Shown: in pieces, positions 67-15,396 of the stretch
Numbering within the stretch: the stretch's first letter is position 1
Layout: every line of letters begins with the position of its first letter
Assembly (NCBI GenBank): GCA_015494005.1
Contig: WGCB01000597.1
Coordinates: 1 to 16,901 of the forward strand
Reading direction: 5' to 3'
From: Caldilineaceae bacterium
GTDB taxonomy: Bacteria > Chloroflexota > Anaerolineae > Caldilineales > Caldilineaceae
Length of the DNA: 16,901 bases
Program-made: the position numbers and the translations under genes
Notes under the pieces: model-generated
What the model was told of the DNA's origin: nothing
Databases searched by the model: none
The model's input: only the letters and a program-made list of their open reading frames with translations

Positions 67-140
67 GGGTGGACTCCTTTGGGCGATTGGGAAATCAGAC
101 AATTGGGTGCTTGAGCAACCGGGCAGACGATTTCGTCCCC

Positions 141-182
141 AATCCTCAATCTTCAATCTTCGATCTTCAATCTTCGATCTTG
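141..182. repeat. Heptamer tandem repeat (AATCTTC, about 6 copies)
   Basis: Six consecutive 7-bp units on the plus strand: AATCCTC, AATCTTC, AATCTTC, GATCTTC, AATCTTC, GATCTTG. On the coding (minus) strand the unit reads GAAGATT. The array overlaps the 3' end of the HisN-like gene: its last codons and TGA stop (167-169) lie inside the repeat, so the C-terminal residues KIED are repeat-encoded. Tandem heptamers of this kind are known as STRR elements in cyanobacteria; any link here is only by analogy. Confidence 0.85.
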
Positions 183-8120: not shown

Positions 8121-8170
8121 GTGAAAGAAACGTTGTGAAAGACAGGCGTGGTGAAAGACAGGTGTGAAAA
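8121..8170. repeat. TTTCAC-type leader repeat abutting the SD of the family-5 SBP gene
   Basis: GTGAAAG occurs at 8121, 8135 and 8151, with GTGAAAA at 8164 (spacings 14, 16 and 13); two copies share the longer unit GTGAAAGACAGG. In the transcript (minus) this reads as four CTTTCAC-like elements, the last one ending next to the SD at 8110-8119. It lies at the 3' end of a long untranslated leader. Confidence 0.75.
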
Positions 8171-8500
8171 ACGGGTTGGACAGGGATTGGGAAACAGGCC
8201 GCTGAACGTCTGCCCAGCGGGAGGTTGGGCGTCGATCTCGGGAATGAGCAGGCTGGGATCGAACGGGCAGCAAGCCGGATCGGAGCCCGAATGCGGTGCC
8301 GAGAGGCGGGACGCCTGCAAGCCAGGAACGGTGCAACAAGAGCCTGGAAAAGTGGCACGGACGCGCCGCACACCCACGCGAGAGCAGCGCAAGGGAGACG
8401 CGACGAAGGGCCGGCGATGGAATGATGTTCGGAATTCGGCTTCGTGGGGGAAGAGGAAAAAGGACAAAAACTGGTGGGGGCACAGTTTGTAGGCGGGGAG

Positions 8501-8530
8501 AGTGTATCACGCCCTGCCGTGACTCGTCAA
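8501..8530 (-). promoter_or_regulatory. Sigma70-like promoter for the peptide-type importer operon, with inverted repeat in spacer
   Basis: On the minus strand TTGACG (8530-8525), an 18-bp spacer and TACACT (8506-8501) form a good -35/-10 pair. Transcription would start near 8494, giving a leader of about 390 nt. Within the spacer, TCACG (8507-8511) and CGTGA (8518-8522) form a 5-bp inverted repeat with 6-bp spacing, a possible repressor site. The promoter is read from consensus only. Confidence 0.55.
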
Positions 8531-8536
8531 ACGGCG

Positions 8537-8570
8537 AAAAAACGACAGGTGCAGGGCCCAGGAGGACCCT
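8537..8570 (-). terminator. Possible terminator after the DinB-type gene
   Basis: In the minus-strand transcript a 7-bp stem AGGGUCC/GGGCCCU (8570-8553, loop UCCU) is followed about 10 nt later by six U (8542-8537). One pair is G-U on this strand but C-A on the other, which favours the minus strand. The distance from stem to U-tract is greater than usual, so this is a weak terminator candidate. Confidence 0.4.
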
Positions 8571-8597
8571 TCCCGCTGTCCGTCGGGCCCGGGGAAT

Positions 8598-9572
8598 TCA
8601 GGCCCGAGGAACCAGATGGCCATCCGCCCGGGCCTGCCAGAGATCCCCGGCATGCTCGGCCCGGTGCTGGGCCAGGTCGAAGAGGAAGCCCAGCAGGGAG
8701 CCCTCCTGGCCCCAGCCGTAGTCGCCCTGGCTTTCCAGGAGCTGGTCGCTGGCCTGGTCGAAGAAGGCGAGGGTGCGCCGCTGCATGGTAGCCAGTCCGT
8801 CCAGCAGATCGATGAGGCTCTGGCCCTCCTTCTGGGCCAGCAACCGCGCGTTGATGGCGTCGATGTGCTCCCCCTCCAGCCAGGGGGCCAGGCTCTCCCG
8901 GTCCACCTGGGGCCACTGCTGCACCACCTGCCAGCCGTATTCCTCCCAGGCCAGCACGTGGGCCAGCACGTCCCGGGCGCTCCACACGCCGCAGACGGGC
9001 ACCGTGGTCAGGCTCTCCTCGTCCAGGCCACCGATGGCGTCCAGCAGGTGGGTGAACTGCCGGTCCAGGAAGGCCCGCATGCCCTCCCGGCCCCAGCGGT
9101 CCAGGGAGCGGGCGTAGGCCTGGATCTCCCAGGTGTGCTCCCGGGTGTGTTTGATCATGTGGGTGAGCAGGGCTGCCAGATCCAGCTGACGCTCTCCCTC
9201 GGGGTACGGGCGAGCCAGGGCCTCGGGCGTCAGGCTAGCCGCGAACTCGATCAGCCCCTGCCGGGCCGCGTCCGCCTCCGCCTGGATCTTGGTCCAGGGG
9301 CGCTGGGCGTCCCGCTCCGCCCGCTGGTCGTTGTCCTCGTCCGGCAGCTGCAGGCCTGTCGCCGCGGATTCCCCGGCCAGGGCCGCCTGCATGCGCCGGG
9401 TCTGGAAGGCGTCCCAGAAGGCCACGTGGGCCAGGGTGGCCTTGGGTGTCCAGCCGTTGGCCAGCCGCGCGGACTCCAGCTCCTCTGGCTCCAGCAGGGC
9501 CAGGGTGTGGATCAGATCCTCGTAGCTGCGTTGCAGCTTGTCGAGCAAGGATGGAAGCGAGGGCGTGCTCAT
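8598..9572 (-). CDS. Tandem DinB/YfiT-like protein (two four-helix metal-binding domains)
   Basis: The 324-residue protein contains two DinB-superfamily domains in tandem. Residue numbers here count from a TTG at 9587; subtract 5 for the chosen ATG at 9572. Domain 1 (about 11-160) has AHVAFWD (His54) and KHTREH (His147, His151). Domain 2 (about 170-320) has AHVLAWEE (His210) and QHRAEH (His308, His312). Each domain thus keeps the full three-histidine metal site. The halves align in order (NGWTPKATLAHVAFWDAF versus CGVWSARDVLAHVLAWEEYG), indicating an internal duplication. Single-domain relatives include thiol-dependent S-transferases and ClbS/DfsB-like proteins of about 150-180 residues; the reaction here is unknown. 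It has its own promoter and a divergent aldo/keto reductase neighbour. The start is uncertain because the SD is weak. Confidence 0.88.
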   Translation of the reverse strand: MSTPSLPSLLDKLQRSYEDLIHTLALLEPEELESARLANGWTPKATLAHVAFWDAFQTRRMQAALAGESAATGLQLPDEDNDQRAERDAQRPWTKIQAEADAARQGLIEFAASLTPEALARPYPEGERQLDLAALLTHMIKHTREHTWEIQAYARSLDRWGREGMRAFLDRQFTHLLDAIGGLDEESLTTVPVCGVWSARDVLAHVLAWEEYGWQVVQQWPQVDRESLAPWLEGEHIDAINARLLAQKEGQSLIDLLDGLATMQRRTLAFFDQASDQLLESQGDYGWGQEGSLLGFLFDLAQHRAEHAGDLWQARADGHLVPRA

Positions 9573-9590
9573 GGACGTGTTTTCCAAAGG

Positions 9591-9617
9591 GCCCCCCAGG
9601 GGTGCGCGTCGGGGGGC
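9591..9617. promoter_or_regulatory. GC-only hairpin just upstream of the DinB-type start
   Basis: GCCCCCC (9591-9597) and GGGGGGC (9611-9617) form a perfect 7-bp stem with a 13-nt loop. In the minus-strand leader it ends 18 nt before the chosen ATG. The start codon lacks a good SD, so this structure could influence initiation. No function is proved. Confidence 0.45.
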
Positions 9618-9693
9618 ACGTTAGGGGTGAGGGCATGGGGTGGACCGAACCATTCCGGGACGGCTTGGGCGTCAAAAGGCTTGTTGCCCGGCC

Positions 9694-9722
9694 ATTCTAC
9701 CCCATCCCAGGGCCGGGTTCAA
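9694..9722 (-). promoter_or_regulatory. Sigma70-like promoter for the DinB-type gene
   Basis: On the minus strand TTGAAC (9722-9717), a 17-bp spacer and TAGAAT (9699-9694) match the consensus at 4/6 and 5/6 positions. The expected start is near 9687, about 115 nt before the ATG at 9572. Confidence 0.6.
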
Positions 9723-9758
9723 ACTCGATTCCGGGACTGTACCGGTTTTGGCCAACAC

Positions 9759-9787
9759 TTGAAATTCTCTGCAAAGCGGAGTAAAGT
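9759..9787 (+). promoter_or_regulatory. Sigma70-like promoter for the aldo/keto reductase pair
   Basis: TTGAAA (9759-9764), a 17-bp spacer and TAAAGT (9782-9787) match the consensus at 5/6 and 4/6 positions. The expected start is near 9794, about 115 nt before the first reductase. The spacer contains a near-inverted repeat CTCTGC-AAA-GCGGAG (9767-9781). Confidence 0.6.
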
Positions 9788-9853
9788 GGGGACGGAACAA
9801 CCGCAGGCACTCCCCCGGCCCCACCGGCTGCCTTCCCTCGGCCAGCCGTGTTC

Positions 9854-9893
9854 ACGCATCCACTCTCACGCCATCCACTCTCATGCCACCCAC
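9854..9893 (+). repeat. Leader direct repeat abutting the SD of the first reductase
   Basis: ACGCATCCACTCTC (9854-9867) is repeated as ACGCCATCCACTCTC (9868-9882), then a partial third copy ATGCCACCCAC (9883-9893). The SD AAGGAGG begins at 9894, directly adjoining the repeat. The stretch is rich in C, A and U and nearly free of G in the transcript. Confidence 0.85.
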
Positions 9894-9908
9894 AAGGAGG
9901 GACGAGCC

Positions 9909-10925
9909 ATGGAGTACCGTTCTCTGGGCAGGACAGGCGTTCAGGTCAGCGTGCTCTGTCTGGGCTGCATGATGTTCGGCGGCAAAACCGAGCCGAAGGC
10001 CTCCTATCGCATCATCGACCGGGCCCTGGACGCGGGCATCAACTTCCTGGACACGGCCAACGTCTACAGCCGGGGGCGCAGCGAGGAGGTCACCGGGGAG
10101 GCCCTGAAGCGCAACGGCAAACGGGATCGGGTGATCCTGGCCACCAAGGTGCACGGCCGCATGACCGACGACGATCCCAACTCCTCGGGCAACAGCCGCC
10201 GCCACATCATCGAGCAGTGCGAGGCCAGCCTGCGCCGTCTGCAGACCGACTACATCGACCTCTACCAGATCCACCGGCCCCAGTCCAACATCCCCATCGA
10301 CGAGACCCTGCGAGCCCTGGACGACCTGGTGCGGGCCGGCAAGGTGCGCTACATCGGCACCAGCACTTTCGCCGCCTGGCAGGTGATGGAGTCCCTCTGG
10401 GTCTCCAAGGAGCTGGGGCTGAACCGGTTCGTCACCGAGCAGCCGCCCTACCACATCCTGGACCGGCGCATCGAGCGGGAGCTGATCCCCCTGGCCCAGA
10501 CCCACGGCCTGGGCATCATCCCCTGGAGCCCCCTGGCCGGCGGCCTGCTCACAGGAAAGTACCATCGGGGCGCGCCACCTCCGCCGGACAGCCGCTTCGC
10601 CCAGGCCGAGAGCAACCCCATCCTCCGGGCTCGGATGAACGAGGCCATCTACGACGTCATCGACGGCCTGCGCCCCCTGGCCAAGGCCAAGGGCTGCACC
10701 CTCTCCCAGCTGGCCCTGGCCTGGGTCATGCACCAGCCCGGTGTGACCAGCCCCATCATCGGTCCCCGCACCATGGAGCAGCTGGAGGACAACCTGGGCG
10801 CGCTGGAGGTGACGATCAGCGACGACGACCGGGAGGTCATCGACCACCTGGTGCCCCCGGGCCGCATGGTCTCCCCCTTCTACCAGGCGGACTTCGGGCC
10901 ACACCTGTATCGGACTATCGTCTGA
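9909..10925 (+). CDS. Aldo/keto reductase (Tas/YajO-like)
   Basis: NAD(P)H-dependent oxidoreductase of 338 residues with an (alpha/beta)8 barrel. The catalytic tetrad is visible: Asp48 (NFLDTANVY), Tyr53, Lys80 (ATKVHG) and His122 (YQIHRP). Opening MEYRSLGRTGVQVS, the PWSPLAGGLLTGKY segment (205-218) and the cofactor-binding GPRTMEQLEDN (285-295) are typical of the YajO/Tas-like and potassium-channel-beta-like branch. Such enzymes reduce aldehydes, ketones or sugar-type carbonyls; the substrate here is not evident. The ATG at 9909 has a strong SD (AAGGAGG at 9894-9900). A promoter is visible upstream, and a second, different reductase starts 48 nt after its stop, so the pair is probably an operon. 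Confidence 0.93.
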   Translation: MEYRSLGRTGVQVSVLCLGCMMFGGKTEPKASYRIIDRALDAGINFLDTANVYSRGRSEEVTGEALKRNGKRDRVILATKVHGRMTDDDPNSSGNSRRHIIEQCEASLRRLQTDYIDLYQIHRPQSNIPIDETLRALDDLVRAGKVRYIGTSTFAAWQVMESLWVSKELGLNRFVTEQPPYHILDRRIERELIPLAQTHGLGIIPWSPLAGGLLTGKYHRGAPPPPDSRFAQAESNPILRARMNEAIYDVIDGLRPLAKAKGCTLSQLALAWVMHQPGVTSPIIGPRTMEQLEDNLGALEVTISDDDREVIDHLVPPGRMVSPFYQADFGPHLYRTIV

Positions 10926-10973
10926 CGAGCCCAGCCACCGATCACACCAGTTTCATTCTGGAGGAAGCCAGCC

Positions 10974-11840
10974 ATGCCCACCATCGAGAAACGACCCTTT
11001 GGCCGCACCGGCCACATGAGCACCGTGACCCTCTTCGGCGCCGCCGCCCTGAGCCAGGTCACCCAGGCGGAGGCGGACCGGGTCCTGGAGCTGCTCCTGG
11101 AGTACGGCGTCAACCACATCGACACCGCGGCCAGCTACGGCGACGCGGAGCTGCGCATCGGCCCCTGGATGGAGCGCCATCGGGACCGCTTCTTCCTAGC
11201 CACCAAGACCGGCGAGCGCAGCTACGAGCAGGCCAAGGCGGAGATCCGTCGCTCCCTGGAGCGGCTGCGGGTGACCCAGATCGACCTGATCCAGCTCCAC
11301 AACCTGGTCCACCCGGACGAGTGGGAGCAGGCCCTGGGGCCCGGCGGCGCGCTGGAGGCGGCCGTGGAAGCCCGGGAGCAGGGCCTGGTGCGCTTCATCG
11401 GCGTCACCGGCCACGGGCTGGCCGCCCCGGCCATGCACCGGCGCAGCCTGGAGCGCTTCGACTTCGACTCGGTGCTCCTGCCCTACAACTTCGTGATGAT
11501 GCAGAATCCCCAGTACGCGGCGGACTTCGAGCGGCTCATGGCCCTCTGCCAGGAGCGCAACGTGGCCGTCCAGACCATCAAGACCATCGCCCGGGGGCCC
11601 TGGGGGAGCAAACCCCGCACCCGGGCCACCTGGTACGAGCCCCTGGAGGAGCAGGTGGACATCGACCGGGCCGTTCACTGGGCCATGAGTCGTCCCGGCA
11701 TCTTCCTGAACACCGTGGGAGACATCCACCTGCTGTCCAAGGTCCTGGACGCGGCCAGCCGCTACCCGGGCCATCCGCCCACGGACGAGGAGATGCGAGC
11801 CATGTTGGAAGGACTGCGCATGTCCTCCCTGTTTGCCTGA
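10974..11840 (+). CDS. Aldo/keto reductase, second and shorter paralogue
   Basis: A 288-residue reductase of the same superfamily. The tetrad is Asp50 ([11 protein letters not shown]), Tyr55, Lys78 (LATKTGERS) and His109 (IQLHNL). It lacks the loop between the tetrad lysine and histidine that its neighbour has, and it lacks a canonical C-terminal cofactor-binding segment like GPRT, having [14 protein letters not shown] (247-260) instead. This pattern is seen in a short AKR group of unassigned function. SD TGGAGG lies 10 nt before the ATG. Its TGA stop directly abuts the stop of the convergent oxidoreductase gene. With that neighbour it suggests handling of carbohydrate-like carbonyls, which is inference. 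Confidence 0.9.
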
Positions 11841-11847
11841 TCAGGCA
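11834..11847. other. Perfect 14-bp palindrome containing two abutting stop codons
   Basis: TGCCTGATCAGGCA is fully self-complementary. Its centre, TGATCA, gives the TGA stop of the second reductase (11838-11840) and, on the other strand, the TGA stop of the Gfo/Idh/MocA gene (11843-11841). The two convergent genes have zero nucleotides between them and both end in GCC-TGA. There is no room for a separate terminator. Confidence 0.9.
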
Positions 11848-12860
11848 CCCAGGGCCACCGGCTGGGCCTGGCCGGTCCGGGCCGAGGCGTAGAGGGCCAG
11901 CACGCTCTCCAGGAAGGTGCGGCTGAGGGCCAGGGGCACCACCGGCGGCGCGCCGTCCAGGACGCAGGCCTCCATGGCCTCCACCTCGCAGAGGTAGGGG
12001 TTCACCGCCGGGATGACCCGCTCCTCCACGTTGCCGTCCAGCCGGGTGAGGGTCATGGTGGTGTCGCCTCGCAGGCCCGGCTTCCAGGGCTCGGGGATCC
12101 AGAGCACGCCCTCGTCCCCCACCAGGTAGGCCCCCTCCCGGAAGGGGGTGCGGAAGCCGGAGGAGATCTGGGCCGCCACCTCCCCGCTGAAGTGGATCTG
12201 CCCTCGCATGGCCACGTCCACGCCGCTCTCCCCCAGGATCTGGCTGGCGAAGGCGACCTGGGGGCGCTGGGGCTGGGCCATGGTGATGGCCAGGCTGTTG
12301 GGGTAGACGCCCACATCCCAGAGGGAGCCGCCCTCCAGAGGGGCGCTCAGGCGCACGTTGCCCGCGTCCTCTGGGGGCAGGTGGAAGTGGAACCAGCTCT
12401 GGATGGTCTGGAGCCGGCCCAGGGCGCCCTCCTGGACCAGGCGGCGGGCGGTCTGGGTCTGGGGATGGTGCAGGTACATGAAGGCCTCGAAGATCGTGAC
12501 CCCATTGGCCTGGGCCGCGGCCTCCACCTGGTCCATCTGCTCCCGGGAGACCACCAGGGGCTTCTCGCAGAGGACATGTTTGCCGGCCTCCGCGGCCTTC
12601 ACCGTCCACGCCGCGTGGAGGGCGTTGGGCAGGCTGATGTAGACCACGTCGATCTGGGGATCGGCCAACATCTCCTCGTAGCTGCCGTAGGCCCTGGGGA
12701 TCTCCCACTGGGCCGCGTAGGCCTGGGCCCGCTCCCGGGAGCGGCTGGCCACGCCGGTCAACTCGCTGCGCTGGGCCGCGCGCAGGGGGCCGATGAGGGC
12801 CCGGTTGATGTTGGCGGTGGAGAGGAGCCCCCACCGCAGTTTCCTCGCTTGTCCGGACAT
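11841..12860 (-). CDS. Gfo/Idh/MocA-family NAD(P)-dependent oxidoreductase
   Basis: The 339-residue protein has an N-terminal Rossmann domain (about 7-120) and a C-terminal alpha/beta domain. Visible hallmarks are the cofactor start KLRWGLLSTANINR (7-20), the EKP motif at 99-101 with catalytic-type Lys100, and GGSLWDVGVYPNS (177-189) with Asp182 and Tyr186 from the G-x-D-x-G-x-Y/H site. This family oxidises or reduces sugars, inositols and related polyols; it resembles the glucose-fructose oxidoreductase/dihydrodiol dehydrogenase-like branch. The ATG at 12860 has SD GGAGG (complement of 12871-12875) preceded directly by a 15-bp tandem repeat. It converges on the aldo/keto reductases and diverges from the small membrane protein gene. 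No clear promoter was found for it. The substrate is unknown. Confidence 0.92.
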   Translation of the reverse strand: MSGQARKLRWGLLSTANINRALIGPLRAAQRSELTGVASRSRERAQAYAAQWEIPRAYGSYEEMLADPQIDVVYISLPNALHAAWTVKAAEAGKHVLCEKPLVVSREQMDQVEAAAQANGVTIFEAFMYLHHPQTQTARRLVQEGALGRLQTIQSWFHFHLPPEDAGNVRLSAPLEGGSLWDVGVYPNSLAITMAQPQRPQVAFASQILGESGVDVAMRGQIHFSGEVAAQISSGFRTPFREGAYLVGDEGVLWIPEPWKPGLRGDTTMTLTRLDGNVEERVIPAVNPYLCEVEAMEACVLDGAPPVVPLALSRTFLESVLALYASARTGQAQPVALGA

Positions 12861-12875
12861 GGGTCTTTTCCTCCA

Positions 12876-12905
12876 AGAAGGTGTGTGCCAGGAAGGTGTG
12901 TGCGG
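12876..12905 (-). repeat. Leader direct repeat abutting the SD of the oxidoreductase gene
   Basis: AAGAAGGTGTGTGCC (12876-12890) is followed directly by AGGAAGGTGTGTGCG (12891-12905), 13 of 15 bases alike. In the transcript (minus) it reads as two C/A/U-rich units, CGCACACACCTTCCT and GGCACACACCTTCTT. The second ends next to the GGAGG SD. Confidence 0.85.
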
Positions 12906-13027
12906 GGGCGATCAGCGGGGGTAGATGCTCCCGGCTATCTTCTCAGCTTTCCGGGGATCTGGCAAGCCTGTGTCGAGGCTCCTCTTGCTACCAGGTGGGC
13001 GTTCGCTGGGAGGCTCGTTCGATCTCT

Positions 13028-13042
13028 TAACCAAGGGTTAAC
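13028..13042. promoter_or_regulatory. Putative operator, inverted repeat TTAACC-N3-GGTTAA
   Basis: TTAACC (13028-13033), AAG, GGTTAA (13037-13042) is a perfect inverted repeat with 6-bp arms. It lies between two divergent genes and is an AT-rich island in GC-rich DNA, as expected for a repressor or activator site. No regulator gene is in the window. Confidence 0.4.
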
Positions 13043-13122
13043 CCAATCGATCTTGTTCGTTCTCCAGGGCATGGTACCGTGAACAGGTGAAAGAACCGTC
13101 CATCATGCCAGCCTGGCTGTGG

Positions 13123-13146
13123 CTGGTCACTTCACTGGTCATTTCA
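13123..13146 (+). repeat. Leader direct repeat before the small membrane protein gene
   Basis: CTGGTCACTTCA (13123-13134) is followed directly by CTGGTCATTTCA (13135-13146), one transition apart, then CCTGG. The purine-rich SD region (GGGAAGGAGAGG) starts a few bases later. Confidence 0.85.
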
Positions 13147-13169
13147 CCTGGAAGGGAAGGAGAGGAACC

Positions 13170-13304
13170 ATGCCAGTGTGGGCCCTGGTGCTGATCGGTG
13201 CTCCCATGGGAGCCGCCACGCTGATCGTCTGCTCCACGTTCATCATTTCGGCGCGAGAATCCGTCCTGGAGGAGTTGGAGGGCGGCTGGCCAAAGCGGAA
13301 ATAG
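13170..13304 (+). CDS. Small single-pass membrane protein, 44 residues, unknown function
   Basis: Not recognised as a named family. The ATG at 13170 has a strong SD (AAGGAGAGG, starting 13 nt upstream). The peptide starts MPVWALVLIGAPMGAATLIV and has one predicted membrane helix (about 3-27), followed by a charged tail (RESVLEELEGGWPKRK). The tail is probably cytoplasmic given its basic end, but orientation is uncertain. It ends in TAG at 13304. The SD and the leader direct repeat shared with neighbouring genes argue that it is real, although longer open frames on the opposite strand also cover the region. A longer form beginning at an ATG at 13119 would read through the direct repeat and lacks an SD. 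It may be divergently regulated with the oxidoreductase. Confidence 0.55.
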   Translation: MPVWALVLIGAPMGAATLIVCSTFIISARESVLEELEGGWPKRK

Positions 13305-13391
13305 CCTCGAAACGAAGGGCGGCCGTCCAGGGCTGGGCCTAGCGGAAGAGAGTGCCTGCAGCCCTCTGGATCCACGCCGCCTCTGCGCCTG

Positions 13392-13442
13392 GGGCAGGGT
13401 CGCCCTGTCCACCTGGCTGCGCCGCGCCCCTCCGCGGCCAGC
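13392..13442 (+). terminator. Two adjacent GC hairpins, terminator-like, after the small gene
   Basis: Hairpin 1: GGGCAGGG (13392-13399) with CCCTGTCC (13403-13410), 8 bp including one G-U that works only in plus-strand RNA. Hairpin 2: GCTG plus GCCGCG (13416-13426, one bulged C) with CGCGGCCAGC (13433-13442). A pyrimidine-rich tract follows (C/U-rich to 13475) but no pure U run. They may insulate the small gene from the next promoter. Confidence 0.4.
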
Positions 13443-13503
13443 AGCTCCCCCTCCTTTCTCCTCTCCGTCTGGACACCTCGCCGCGAAGCCACGAAAAAGC
13501 TGT

Positions 13504-13532
13504 TTGACACGGTTTTCAATCGCTGCTAGACT
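13504..13532 (+). promoter_or_regulatory. Strong sigma70-like promoter for the sugar-type importer operon
   Basis: TTGACA (13504-13509) is a perfect -35, followed by a 17-bp spacer and TAGACT (13527-13532) with an extended -10 TGC directly before it. The expected start is near 13539, inside the adjacent inverted repeat. The leader is about 340 nt. Confidence 0.75.
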
Positions 13533-13533
13533 G

Positions 13534-13554
13534 AATGTGACTAGCAGTCACATT
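13534..13554. promoter_or_regulatory. Putative repressor operator overlapping the transcription start
   Basis: AATGTGACT (13534-13542), AGC, AGTCACATT (13546-13554) is a perfect inverted repeat with 9-bp arms. It begins 2 bp after the -10 box and covers the expected start, the classic position for a repressor site. The core TGTGA-N7-TCACA resembles a CRP half-site pair but has 7 rather than 6 central bases. A sugar-responsive regulator such as LacI or GntR type is plausible. The repeat could also form a hairpin at the 5' end of the message. Confidence 0.7.
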
Positions 13555-13795
13555 GTCCCCCGAGTGCTTCCACGGTTTCTCCCACTGTGCGGTCGACTCA
13601 TTCTGGTCAACGATGCTCTAGGATGAGCCACTTCACACCGTTCCATCACACGGATGCTCTCCCGAAAAACTGGTCGCGGCGTCACGGCAGCGGATCGCTT
13701 TGCCGACGGGTTGTCGCTTTTGTGTCGGAGTGAGCACACGTGTGACCGAGCTTGGATCCCCTGCTGCTGCGGTAACCTGCTGTCTCTCCGTTCCA

Positions 13796-13831
13796 CCGGT
13801 TTCATCGGTGCATCTGGTTTCACTGGCGCAT
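13796..13831 (+). repeat. Degenerate 18-bp direct repeat in the leader of the family-1 SBP gene
   Basis: CCGGTTTCATCGGTGCAT (13796-13813) is followed directly by CTGGTTTCACTGGCGCAT (13814-13831), 14 of 18 alike, with all four differences being C/T changes. A looser third copy (TTTGGTCATTCG) follows. The SD AAGGAGG starts at 13865. Confidence 0.7.
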
Positions 13832-13878
13832 TTTGGTCATTCGTTTCCACAACATACCCAGTACAAGGAGGTTGTGCC

Positions 13879-15300
13879 ATGCAGGTATCCAAACGTTTTC
13901 TGCTGCTTGCCGTGTTGATCGTTGCCGCACTGGTGCTCACGGCCTGTCCGGCTCAGCAGCCAGCTGCCCCCGCCCCCGCTCCGGCCGAGGAGAAGGGCGA
14001 AGCAGCCGCGCCCGCGGCAGAGGAGGCCGCCGGCCCGGTGGAGATCGTGGTCTGGGCCGAGGCCAACAACGTGGAGCACTGGCGGGCGGACGGCCCGGCC
14101 AAGGCCGCGGAGATGGTGGAGGACTTCGACATCAACGTGACGCCCGTCAACGATGACGCCGGCTGGGGCGACTACAAGAAGAAGTTCACCCTGGCCGCGG
14201 ACGCGGGCGAGGCCCCGGACATCGTCCTCTCCGGCCACGAGGACATCCCGGTCTGGGCCAACGCCGGCTACATCGAGGAGTTCGGCTGGTGCCGGGAGAA
14301 GTATCCGGAGTTCGATGACGTGATCGACAGCCTGTGGGATTCGGTCACCTGGAAGGGCAAGATCTGGGGCGTTCCTCAGGACACGGAAGCCCGGCCCATG
14401 TTCTTCAACAAAAAGCTCCTGGCCGAGATGGGCTGGTCCCAGGAGGAGATCGACGCCCTGCCCGAGAAGATCAAGGCCGGCGAGTTCACCCTGGACGACA
14501 TGATCGCCACGGCCAAGGAGGGCATCGACAAGGGCGTGGTGGAGCCCGGCTTCGGCTACTGGCACCGACCCCGCAAGGGCGGCGACTACATCCAGTACTA
14601 CGCGGCCTACGGCGGTCGCCTCTACGACCCGGAGCAGGACAAGCTGATCGTCACCAAGGACGCCCTGGAGAAGTGGTACGCCTTCCAGCGCCGGGTGGTG
14701 GAAGAGGGCATCACCCCGGAGAACTACATCGGCACCGAGTGGAGCATCTGGCACGATACGGTGACCAGCGGCAAGGTCCTCTTCTGGAACGGCGGCATCT
14801 GGCAGTGGGCGGACTGGGCCACCAACTACGTGGCGGACCAGGGCGGCGAGGAGTACCTCTTCAGCTTCGTGGGCTACGCCCTGCAGCCCACCGGCATCCC
14901 CGGCCGCCCTGGGATCACCCTCTCCCACCCGCTGGTCTACATGATCACCACCGAGGAGGCCTCGGGCAAGAGCAACCAGGAGGCGGCCTGCGCCCTGCTG
15001 GCCAAGACCACCACGCCGGAGATCAACACCCTGCACGCGGTGGACAGCACCCACCTGGGCATCCTCAAATCCCAGGCCACCTATCCGGACTACGCCAACA
15101 ACCGCTTCCTCTCGGACGTGCTCTACATGCTGGACTACAACTTCTACCAGCCCAACCATGTGATGTACGGTCCCTACTTCGACATCGTGTGGGACTTCAT
15201 GGTGAAGGCGGAGAACGGCGAGATGGACCCGGCCGCGGCCGCGGAGGCGGCGGTGCAGCAGCTCCAGGCGGAGCTGGGCGACGCGGTGATCGTGGAGTAG
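13879..15300 (+). CDS. ABC importer solute-binding lipoprotein, family 1 (sugar type)
   Basis: Exported lipoprotein of 473 residues that would deliver a sugar to the two permeases encoded downstream. The signal peptide ends in lipobox LTAC with Cys23 as lipid anchor. An Ala/Pro/Glu linker follows (24-55), then the family-1 domain starting VEIVVWAEANNVEHW (from about 56). FTLAADAGEAPDIVLSGHED and GKIWGVPQDTEARPMFFNKKLL are typical of maltose/multiple-sugar binding proteins. The SD AAGGAGG (13865-13871) is spaced 7 nt before the ATG. It has its own promoter, operator and long leader. A strong hairpin follows 8 nt after the stop. The ligand is not evident. Confidence 0.93.
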   Translation: MQVSKRFLLLAVLIVAALVLTACPAQQPAAPAPAPAEEKGEAAAPAAEEAAGPVEIVVWAEANNVEHWRADGPAKAAEMVEDFDINVTPVNDDAGWGDYKKKFTLAADAGEAPDIVLSGHEDIPVWANAGYIEEFGWCREKYPEFDDVIDSLWDSVTWKGKIWGVPQDTEARPMFFNKKLLAEMGWSQEEIDALPEKIKAGEFTLDDMIATAKEGIDKGVVEPGFGYWHRPRKGGDYIQYYAAYGGRLYDPEQDKLIVTKDALEKWYAFQRRVVEEGITPENYIGTEWSIWHDTVTSGKVLFWNGGIWQWADWATNYVADQGGEEYLFSFVGYALQPTGIPGRPGITLSHPLVYMITTEEASGKSNQEAACALLAKTTTPEINTLHAVDSTHLGILKSQATYPDYANNRFLSDVLYMLDYNFYQPNHVMYGPYFDIVWDFMVKAENGEMDPAAAAEAAVQQLQAELGDAVIVE

Positions 15301-15308
15301 ATGGTGCT

Positions 15309-15345
15309 ATGGGATGGGGCGCGGGTTCTCCGGGCCCCATCCCAT
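15309..15345 (+). promoter_or_regulatory. Intercistronic hairpin after the family-1 SBP gene
   Basis: ATGGGATGGGGC (15309-15320) and GCCCCATCCCAT (15334-15345) form a perfect 12-bp stem with a 13-nt loop, starting 8 nt after the stop codon. No U-tract follows. As with the hairpin at 5938-5974, it probably stabilises the binding-protein message or lowers permease expression. Confidence 0.75.
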
Positions 15346-15366
15346 CTGCGCCACTAGCGCTTCTTT

Positions 15367-15396
15367 CAGATAGCCCATCCGGCAGATAGCCCATCC
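15367..15396 (+). repeat. Perfect 14-bp leader direct repeat before the MalF-like permease gene
   Basis: CAGATAGCCCATCC occurs at 15367-15380 and again, identical, at 15383-15396 (period 16). The SD AAGGAG begins at 15410, 13 nt after the second copy. Confidence 0.9.

Follow-up and report, generated by a model that had tools for sequence, protein, structure and literature searches.

Short direct repeats stand just 5' of several genes in a 16,901-nucleotide stretch of DNA from a Caldilineaceae bacterium (the window), where an earlier reading of the sequence (the original prediction) had described tandem copies in the leaders of six genes. We find that these leader repeats are probably instances of a mutational signature that all four sampled Caldilineaceae genomes show in their noncoding DNA, with selection filtering the copies from genes. 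The earlier observation was largely right: all but one of the six leader repeats are genuine and lie far past chance, and the common generating process that had been offered as one explanation is supported, the same signature running throughout the noncoding DNA of the four family genomes. Selection for repeats in leaders, the other explanation offered, fared less well, although an approximately twofold excess at the very edge of the Shine-Dalgarno sequence (SD) remains.

The window is contig C597 of genome G000 (4.17 Mb in 820 contigs, 87.9% complete). We sampled this genome through the window and contigs C1 to C60, that is 61 of the 820 contigs; 18 of these 61, each shorter than 3 kb, consisted of N throughout and were dropped, leaving 278.7 kb. 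The other Caldilineaceae samples were taken from G022 (400 kb), G013 (398 kb) and G001 (356 kb), the outgroup from G034 (400 kb; same class, different family), and E. coli (150 kb) and the Rhodococcus plasmid pRHL1 (100 kb) served as further controls. Genes were called with our own codon-usage caller, which placed the window genes on the expected strands and ignored open reading frames (ORFs) below 60 aa. To find the six window repeats, we used Tandem Repeats Finder together with a lag scan that covered lags of 8-25 (match +1, mismatch -2); for densities in noncoding DNA, a tandem repeat was counted at a score of at least 10 and a lag of 8-25. By this measure, noncoding DNA of the four Caldilineaceae genomes carries 0.66-1.48 repeats per kb (G000 45 in 30.4 kb, G022 42 in 45.9 kb, G013 44 in 44.0 kb, G001 24 in 36.2 kb) as compared to 0.00-0.07 per kb after shuffling. 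The controls reached 0.11 per kb in G034 (5 in 44.5 kb), 0.07 in E. coli (1 in 15.0 kb) and 0.17 in the Rhodococcus plasmid (3 in 17.6 kb). A count that does not depend on gene calls, restricted to lags of 9-20 not divisible by three at a score of 11, gave 9.7, 7.2, 7.5 and 4.2 repeats per 100 kb for G000, G022, G013 and G001 vs 0.5 for G034, with none in the 150 kb of E. coli and 2.0 in the 100 kb of the Rhodococcus plasmid.

Within this noncoding DNA, the 80-nt leader zone taken as a whole is not set apart. Summed over the four genomes, window included, the final 80 nt 5' of genes held 50 repeats in 51.1 kb vs 51 in 50.2 kb for the remaining same-direction gaps, and mid-divergent gaps held 9 in 12.4 kb. 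The counts for the final 80 nt, other same-direction and convergent gaps were 14 in 9.0, 14 in 9.7 and 2 in 1.3 kb for G000; 13 in 16.2, 11 in 15.6 and 0 in 2.3 kb for G022; 12 in 13.4, 20 in 14.6 and 3 in 3.3 kb for G013; 11 in 12.4, 6 in 10.4 and 0 in 2.7 kb for G001; and 0 in 13.2, 1 in 11.9 and 0 in 4.5 kb for G034. Because the 80-nt leader zone is no denser than other intergenic DNA, selection for leader repeats is mostly unsupported. The impression of a leader-specific feature was probably a matter of sampling, since the short gaps scanned by the earlier reader are mostly leaders. In coding DNA, the lag is a multiple of three for nearly every repeat found (59 of 62 in G000, 15 of 17 in G022, 22 of 26 in G013, 49 of 54 in G001 and 45 of 49 in G034), and the coding rates of the family (0.51, 0.10, 0.17 and 0.35 per kb, in the same order) straddle the 0.27 per kb of G034.

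The frequency of leader repeats, which the original prediction had proposed to compare with shuffled leaders, proved far higher than expected from them. We scored up to 70 nt 5' of an SD of at least 5 bases, requiring at least 35 nt and a score of at least 10 (across the analyses the floor was 35-40 nt, shorter leaders being left out), against dinucleotide shuffles, 40 rounds in the case of G000. A repeat was present in 9 of 60 leaders of G000, window included (shuffled mean 0.07), in 5 of 84 of G022 (0.15), 4 of 89 of G013 (0.15) and 8 of 94 of G001 (0.62), and in 1 of 141 leaders of G034 (0.23). With leader rates well above shuffles across the family, the repeats of the window are a small sample of something common there. 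That chance, base composition or an assembly artefact should account for them is hardly credible: leader composition is indeed biased, and some of the family genomes are metagenome assemblies, but a single dinucleotide shuffle per genome yielded 0-2 noncoding matches vs 24-45 observed, and repeats occur in the separate assemblies L193, L196, L199, G001 and G022, whereas almost none are present in a genome of the same class that consists of a single contig. For one of the six leaders the chance explanation does stand, namely the claimed repeat of the family-1 solute-binding protein (SBP) gene, which we reject given that 20 of 300 shuffled leaders contain a tandem pair as good; shuffle counts oppose chance for the other five, all of which were confirmed by the lag scan (Table 1).

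Table 1. Leader repeats of the window and one further array, with positions counted from the first letter of the window
Feature	Position	Strand	Lag (bp)	Copies	Gene or ORF	Repeat end to SD (nt)
SBP_bac_5 leader repeat	8131..8166	minus	16	CACACCTGTCTTTCAC / CACGCCTGTCTTTCAC / AACG	PF00496 (family-5 SBP)	11
Aldo/keto reductase leader repeat	9857..9893	plus	15	CATCCACTCTCACGC / CATCCACTCTCATGC / CACCCAC	PF00248	0
Gfo/Idh/MocA leader repeat	12873..12903	minus	15	GCACACACCTTCCTG / GCACACACCTTCTTG	PF01408	2
Small-ORF leader repeat	13123..13147	plus	12	CTGGTCACTTCA / CTGGTCATTTCA	ORF of 44 aa, 13170-13304	9
ABC permease leader repeat	15367..15396	plus	16	CAGATAGCCCATCC twice, 2-nt spacer, 14/14 identical	PF00528	13
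Claimed 18-bp repeat, family-1 SBP leader (rejected)	13796..13831	plus		14/18 identical, chance level	473-aa "family-1 SBP"	33
CAATCTT heptamer array	140..181			six copies	overlaps 3' end of first minus-strand gene (167-973)	

The leader units of the window measure 12-16 bp and are arranged head to tail in about two to three copies. They had been described as mostly abutting the SD, which holds for the reductase and Gfo/Idh/MocA leaders and not for the other three; outside the window, an excess at the SD edge was nevertheless found, as discussed below. UUUCAC or CAC had earlier been noted in several units; TTTCAC turned out to recur in the SBP_bac_5 leader only, where it has four copies, the final one directly 5' of the SD. 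By eye, and with no motif test made, we recognised no motif common to the leader units, nor a fixed heptamer across the listed leader repeats, two G013 sites sharing CACGCAC-like letters. Pfam upheld the earlier labels SBP_bac_5, Gfo/Idh/MocA and permease domain and identified the first reductase as an aldo/keto reductase; at 1e-3 it gave no match for the 44-aa ORF or for the 473-aa "family-1 SBP". The 44-aa ORF has an SD and, as judged by eye, a hydrophobic stretch, and is situated in a 1-kb gap separating divergent genes.

The sizes of the duplicated units and the letters at their junctions bear on how the repeats arise. In 158 kb of family noncoding DNA, exact two-copy duplications of 7 to 15 bp numbered, in order of size, 54, 16, 11, 6, 5, 5, 6, 15 and 3, followed by none at 16-18 bp, two at 19 bp and one at 28 bp. 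Shuffles predicted 16.0, 3.6, 0.8 and 0.4 at 7-10 bp and zero beyond, and the observed numbers exceeded them at 6-15 and 19 bp. For units of 9-15 bp this amounts to 51 duplications vs 1.2 expected, as compared to 1 in 45 kb of G034. Unit size thus peaks at 7 and 14 bp, with 14 as the mode among units of at least 9 bp, and inexact repeats likewise peak at lag 14 (32 of 193 matches at lags 3-60 in the four genomes) and are frequent up to about 18 bp. Junction homology was further scored for exact duplications with units of 10-19 bp; of 40 such cases, 34 were used, and six with heptamer-like units or with runs of at least 6 nt beyond the unit were omitted. Extra homology of 0, 1, 2, 3, 4 and 5 nt was seen in 20, 8, 2, 1, 2 and 1 cases, where blunt copying predicts 16.1, 8.3, 3.6, 1.4, 0.3 and 0.4, plus 4.0 at 6 nt or more, a class that was filtered from the observed side. 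In the duplications scored, junction homology matches blunt copying, and the first duplication appears independent of pre-existing repeats. As this homology is not in excess, slippage between pre-existing short repeats, one of the origins suggested in the original prediction, is disfavoured as the first step.

A related possibility is that replication slippage, with the polymerase imposing a register of 7 or 14 nt, both creates and expands the repeats. The exact 7-bp duplications (54 vs 16.0 expected) and the 14-bp peak (15 vs 5, 5 and 6 at 11, 12 and 13 bp) are in line with such a register, as are several multi-copy heptamer arrays elsewhere in the genomes, and it has been suggested that the length of 7 nt may stem from contact with the polymerase (Mrazek 2007, via PMC4679880, partial text). 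However, the first duplications of 10-19 bp scored above lack the microhomology on which a nascent strand would re-pair, sizes of 8-13 bp are likewise above chance, and repeats do not cluster, with 10 of 653 intergenic regions holding two or more vs 15.3 expected. We consider this explanation doubtful overall, and as a mechanism the next likeliest after the one favoured below. Far less probable are scars of mobile elements, that is target-site duplications left by clean excision. Some target-site duplications fall in a similar size range, and the copies here can be exact; against this, unit length varies, the copies directly adjoin in the exact cases listed, and the instances are many, no survey of elements having been made.

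Comparison of orthologous leaders points to turnover. In the gap separating the SBP and permease genes, read in 11 genomes, duplications occur in four (G000, L193, L199 and G013) with unrelated units at differing distances from the SD, whereas the other seven have none at score 9 save one score-9 match in a hairpin of L196. The reductase leader has a repeat in none of four relatives, and the Gfo leader in one of four, a weak one (score 9) with a different unit 7 nt from the SD. Conservation was accordingly absent at the permease gap in 11 genomes and at the reductase and Gfo leaders in four relatives each. Given that orthologous leaders are usually repeat-free or carry an unrelated unit, we conclude that the repeats turn over rather than being conserved. 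The SBP-permease gap of L054 (G013) contains two unrelated 14-bp duplications together with a diverged CACGCACTACGCACC-like heptamer array that has an inverted partner. Two relatives, L196 and L197, share 91.8% identity over 5,650 columns; where L196 has a 13-bp exact duplication, L197 shows a 12-nt gap and one clear copy. This duplication (L196, 9801-9827) is located just 5' of a promoter-like TTGTAG...TATAAT pair that is intact in L197, and there is no SD at the site.

Taking these results together, we propose that some process would copy a short stretch of about 7-19 bp head to tail, requiring neither pre-existing repeats nor microhomology. Copies would persist in noncoding DNA, while in genes those that remain would be nearly all in lags divisible by three, with selection presumably acting as a filter only. 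Leaders may tolerate the copies since these would be located between promoter and SD, or 5' of the promoter. As to the activity behind the copying, our tentative first choice is a pair of nicks, or a stalled cleavage complex, that would be filled in and resealed, as suggested for misfiring topoisomerase I in the E. coli topA R168C mutant; this reading expresses a likeness in mutational spectrum and makes no claim of membership. Two other routes were rejected. Ku-dependent end joining would require Ku, and PF02735 was matched in 0 of 41 genomes (1 of 14 controls, Bacillus subtilis, had it). MutS_I was present in 40 of the 41, including G000, the exception being G003, which is 85% complete. With Ku absent and MutS present, neither Ku-dependent end joining nor loss of MutS mismatch repair is a likely cause.

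Several observations weigh against an account in which mutation alone supplies the repeats and selection merely removes them, or against its favoured mechanism. TopA-domain matches were found in 12 of 12 genomes searched (11 above the cut-off), G034 included, giving no tie of topoisomerase I to the lineage; and R168 of TopA is reported to be invariant across bacteria, in 1,750 of 1,750 sequences (PMC6954433, partial text), making a substitution there unlikely. In L197, the sequence opposite the first copy of the L196 duplication consists of a 5-nt gap and 8 nt matching at 5 of 8 positions, and with such a partial gap and poor match, a gain in L196 and a decayed copy in L197 both fit. Repeats are fewer in convergent gaps, which may be the most neutral DNA (5 in 9.5 kb; binomial p=0.22). 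All five significant window repeats end at most 13 nt from an SD. Beyond the window, which was excluded from this test, 486 leaders with an SD of at least 4 bases contained 67 repeats, and 17 of these end at -6 to +2 of the SD vs 9.0 under uniform placement (p=0.004), so the placement of repeats in leaders is not uniform. The excess held across nine threshold settings (p 0.0015 to 0.022, the data overlapping and the tests not being independent) and was weaker in a test based on repeat centres (p 0.006 to 0.14). Near-SD density exceeded far-leader density in all four genomes (28 near and 33 far repeats; per kb, 2.04 vs 1.80 in G000, 1.84 vs 0.42 in G022, 1.27 vs 0.78 in G013 and 1.57 vs 0.64 in G001). 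Exact copies made up 12 of 28 near-SD and 20 of 33 far repeats (Mann-Whitney p=0.067, Fisher p=0.20), a hint, short of significance, that near-SD repeats are more diverged and have been retained longer. Nor is there a remnant of the SD one period 5' of the abutting repeats (1.29 vs 1.40 of 6 matches, n=17).

On this last result, we rejected truncated SD-spanning duplications as the source of the edge excess: because no SD remnant is found one period upstream, the excess is not simply made of duplications cut off at the SD. Repeats spanning the SD amounted to 3 of 51 among 316 genes, window included. The contrast of near and far leader is strongest in G022 (L112-L131), at about fourfold, and weakest in G000. 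The SD-edge excess would be compatible with selection, with a local hotspot, or with tolerance of insertions that fall between promoter and SD.

The edge excess speaks for functional leaders, in which a doubled unit at the SD would serve as a standby or unfolded landing zone for the ribosome or as a site for an S1-, Csp- or Csr-like protein, and be selected in spite of its changing sequence. The somewhat greater divergence of SD-edge repeats, possibly reflecting age, agrees with this idea, as does the composition of repeat leaders, which are richer in A (0.29 vs 0.226) and, tracking this, more weakly folded in raw terms in three of the four genomes; a similar proposal exists for the TAACTGA repeats of Beggiatoaceae (PMC4679880, partial text). 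However, folding in repeat leaders is not weaker than in shuffles of the same leaders (z -0.11 +/- 0.26, n=28; for 100 repeat-free leaders sampled from 458, z 0.17 +/- 0.10), which lends no support to the unfolded landing zone envisaged in the original prediction. Furthermore, the density of the 80-nt zone equals that of other same-direction gaps, units are not shared or conserved at the orthologous leaders read, and Rfam has no match anywhere in the window at gathering score. We therefore regard functional leaders as unlikely, slightly more so than register-bound slippage. Rated marginally lower again is a mixed scheme in which a doubled unit whose end coincides with the SD edge would be kept for better translation start, while a dedicated or naturally error-prone activity duplicating about 14 bp would keep supplying unrelated leader elements.

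If the repeats are indeed a mutational signature, these genomes offer a natural system for studying the origin of tandem repeats, namely a wild lineage rich in microhomology-free intergenic duplications of narrow size, at a time when the first origin of bacterial tandem repeats from unrepeated DNA is called unknown (PMC6954433, partial text). They also call for caution, as a repeat lying 5' of a gene in genomes of this kind may have no regulatory role. Our literature search found no publication on intergenic tandem duplication in Chloroflexi, which is not proof of its absence from print, and for Caldilinea and tandem repeats nothing on this topic, as judged from titles and the openings of abstracts.

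Among known systems, we compared the signature with the following, each as described in the accessible part of the source. In the E. coli topA R168C mutant, insertions account for half of the mutations conferring galK resistance, and every one of these insertions is a tandem duplication of 2-19 bp formed de novo, with no need of existing repeats (PMC6954433). The Caldilineaceae duplications are likewise head to tail, fall within the 2-19 bp range (exact copies were examined from 6 bp upwards) and, in the 34 of 40 exact cases scored, show no dependence on existing repeats; the difference is that R168C is a laboratory mutant, whereas the signature here is a persistent feature of lineages in the wild and peaks at 7 and 14 bp. 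Long simple sequence repeats of prokaryotes (Mrazek 2007, via PMC4679880) are similarly tandem, patchy among lineages and in excess at 7 nt. They are, however, defined by units of 1-11 nt in arrays longer than expected, and the window instead has 12-16 bp units in about two to three copies, the family at large often showing a pair of copies, each about 14 bp long, whose unit differs from case to case. The TAACTGA repeats of marine Beggiatoaceae (PMC4679880) resemble the window in being direct repeats just 5' of start codons, with a regulatory role suggested there, but they are a single fixed heptamer mostly without an SD, in contrast to the varied units found here by SDs and about equally elsewhere. 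Short tandem duplications also form by fill-in at broken ends in mammalian cells (PMC8355091) and at adjacent nicks in plants (Schiml 2016, via PMC6954433); the mammalian route finishes by non-homologous end joining, unlike the situation in these Ku-less genomes.

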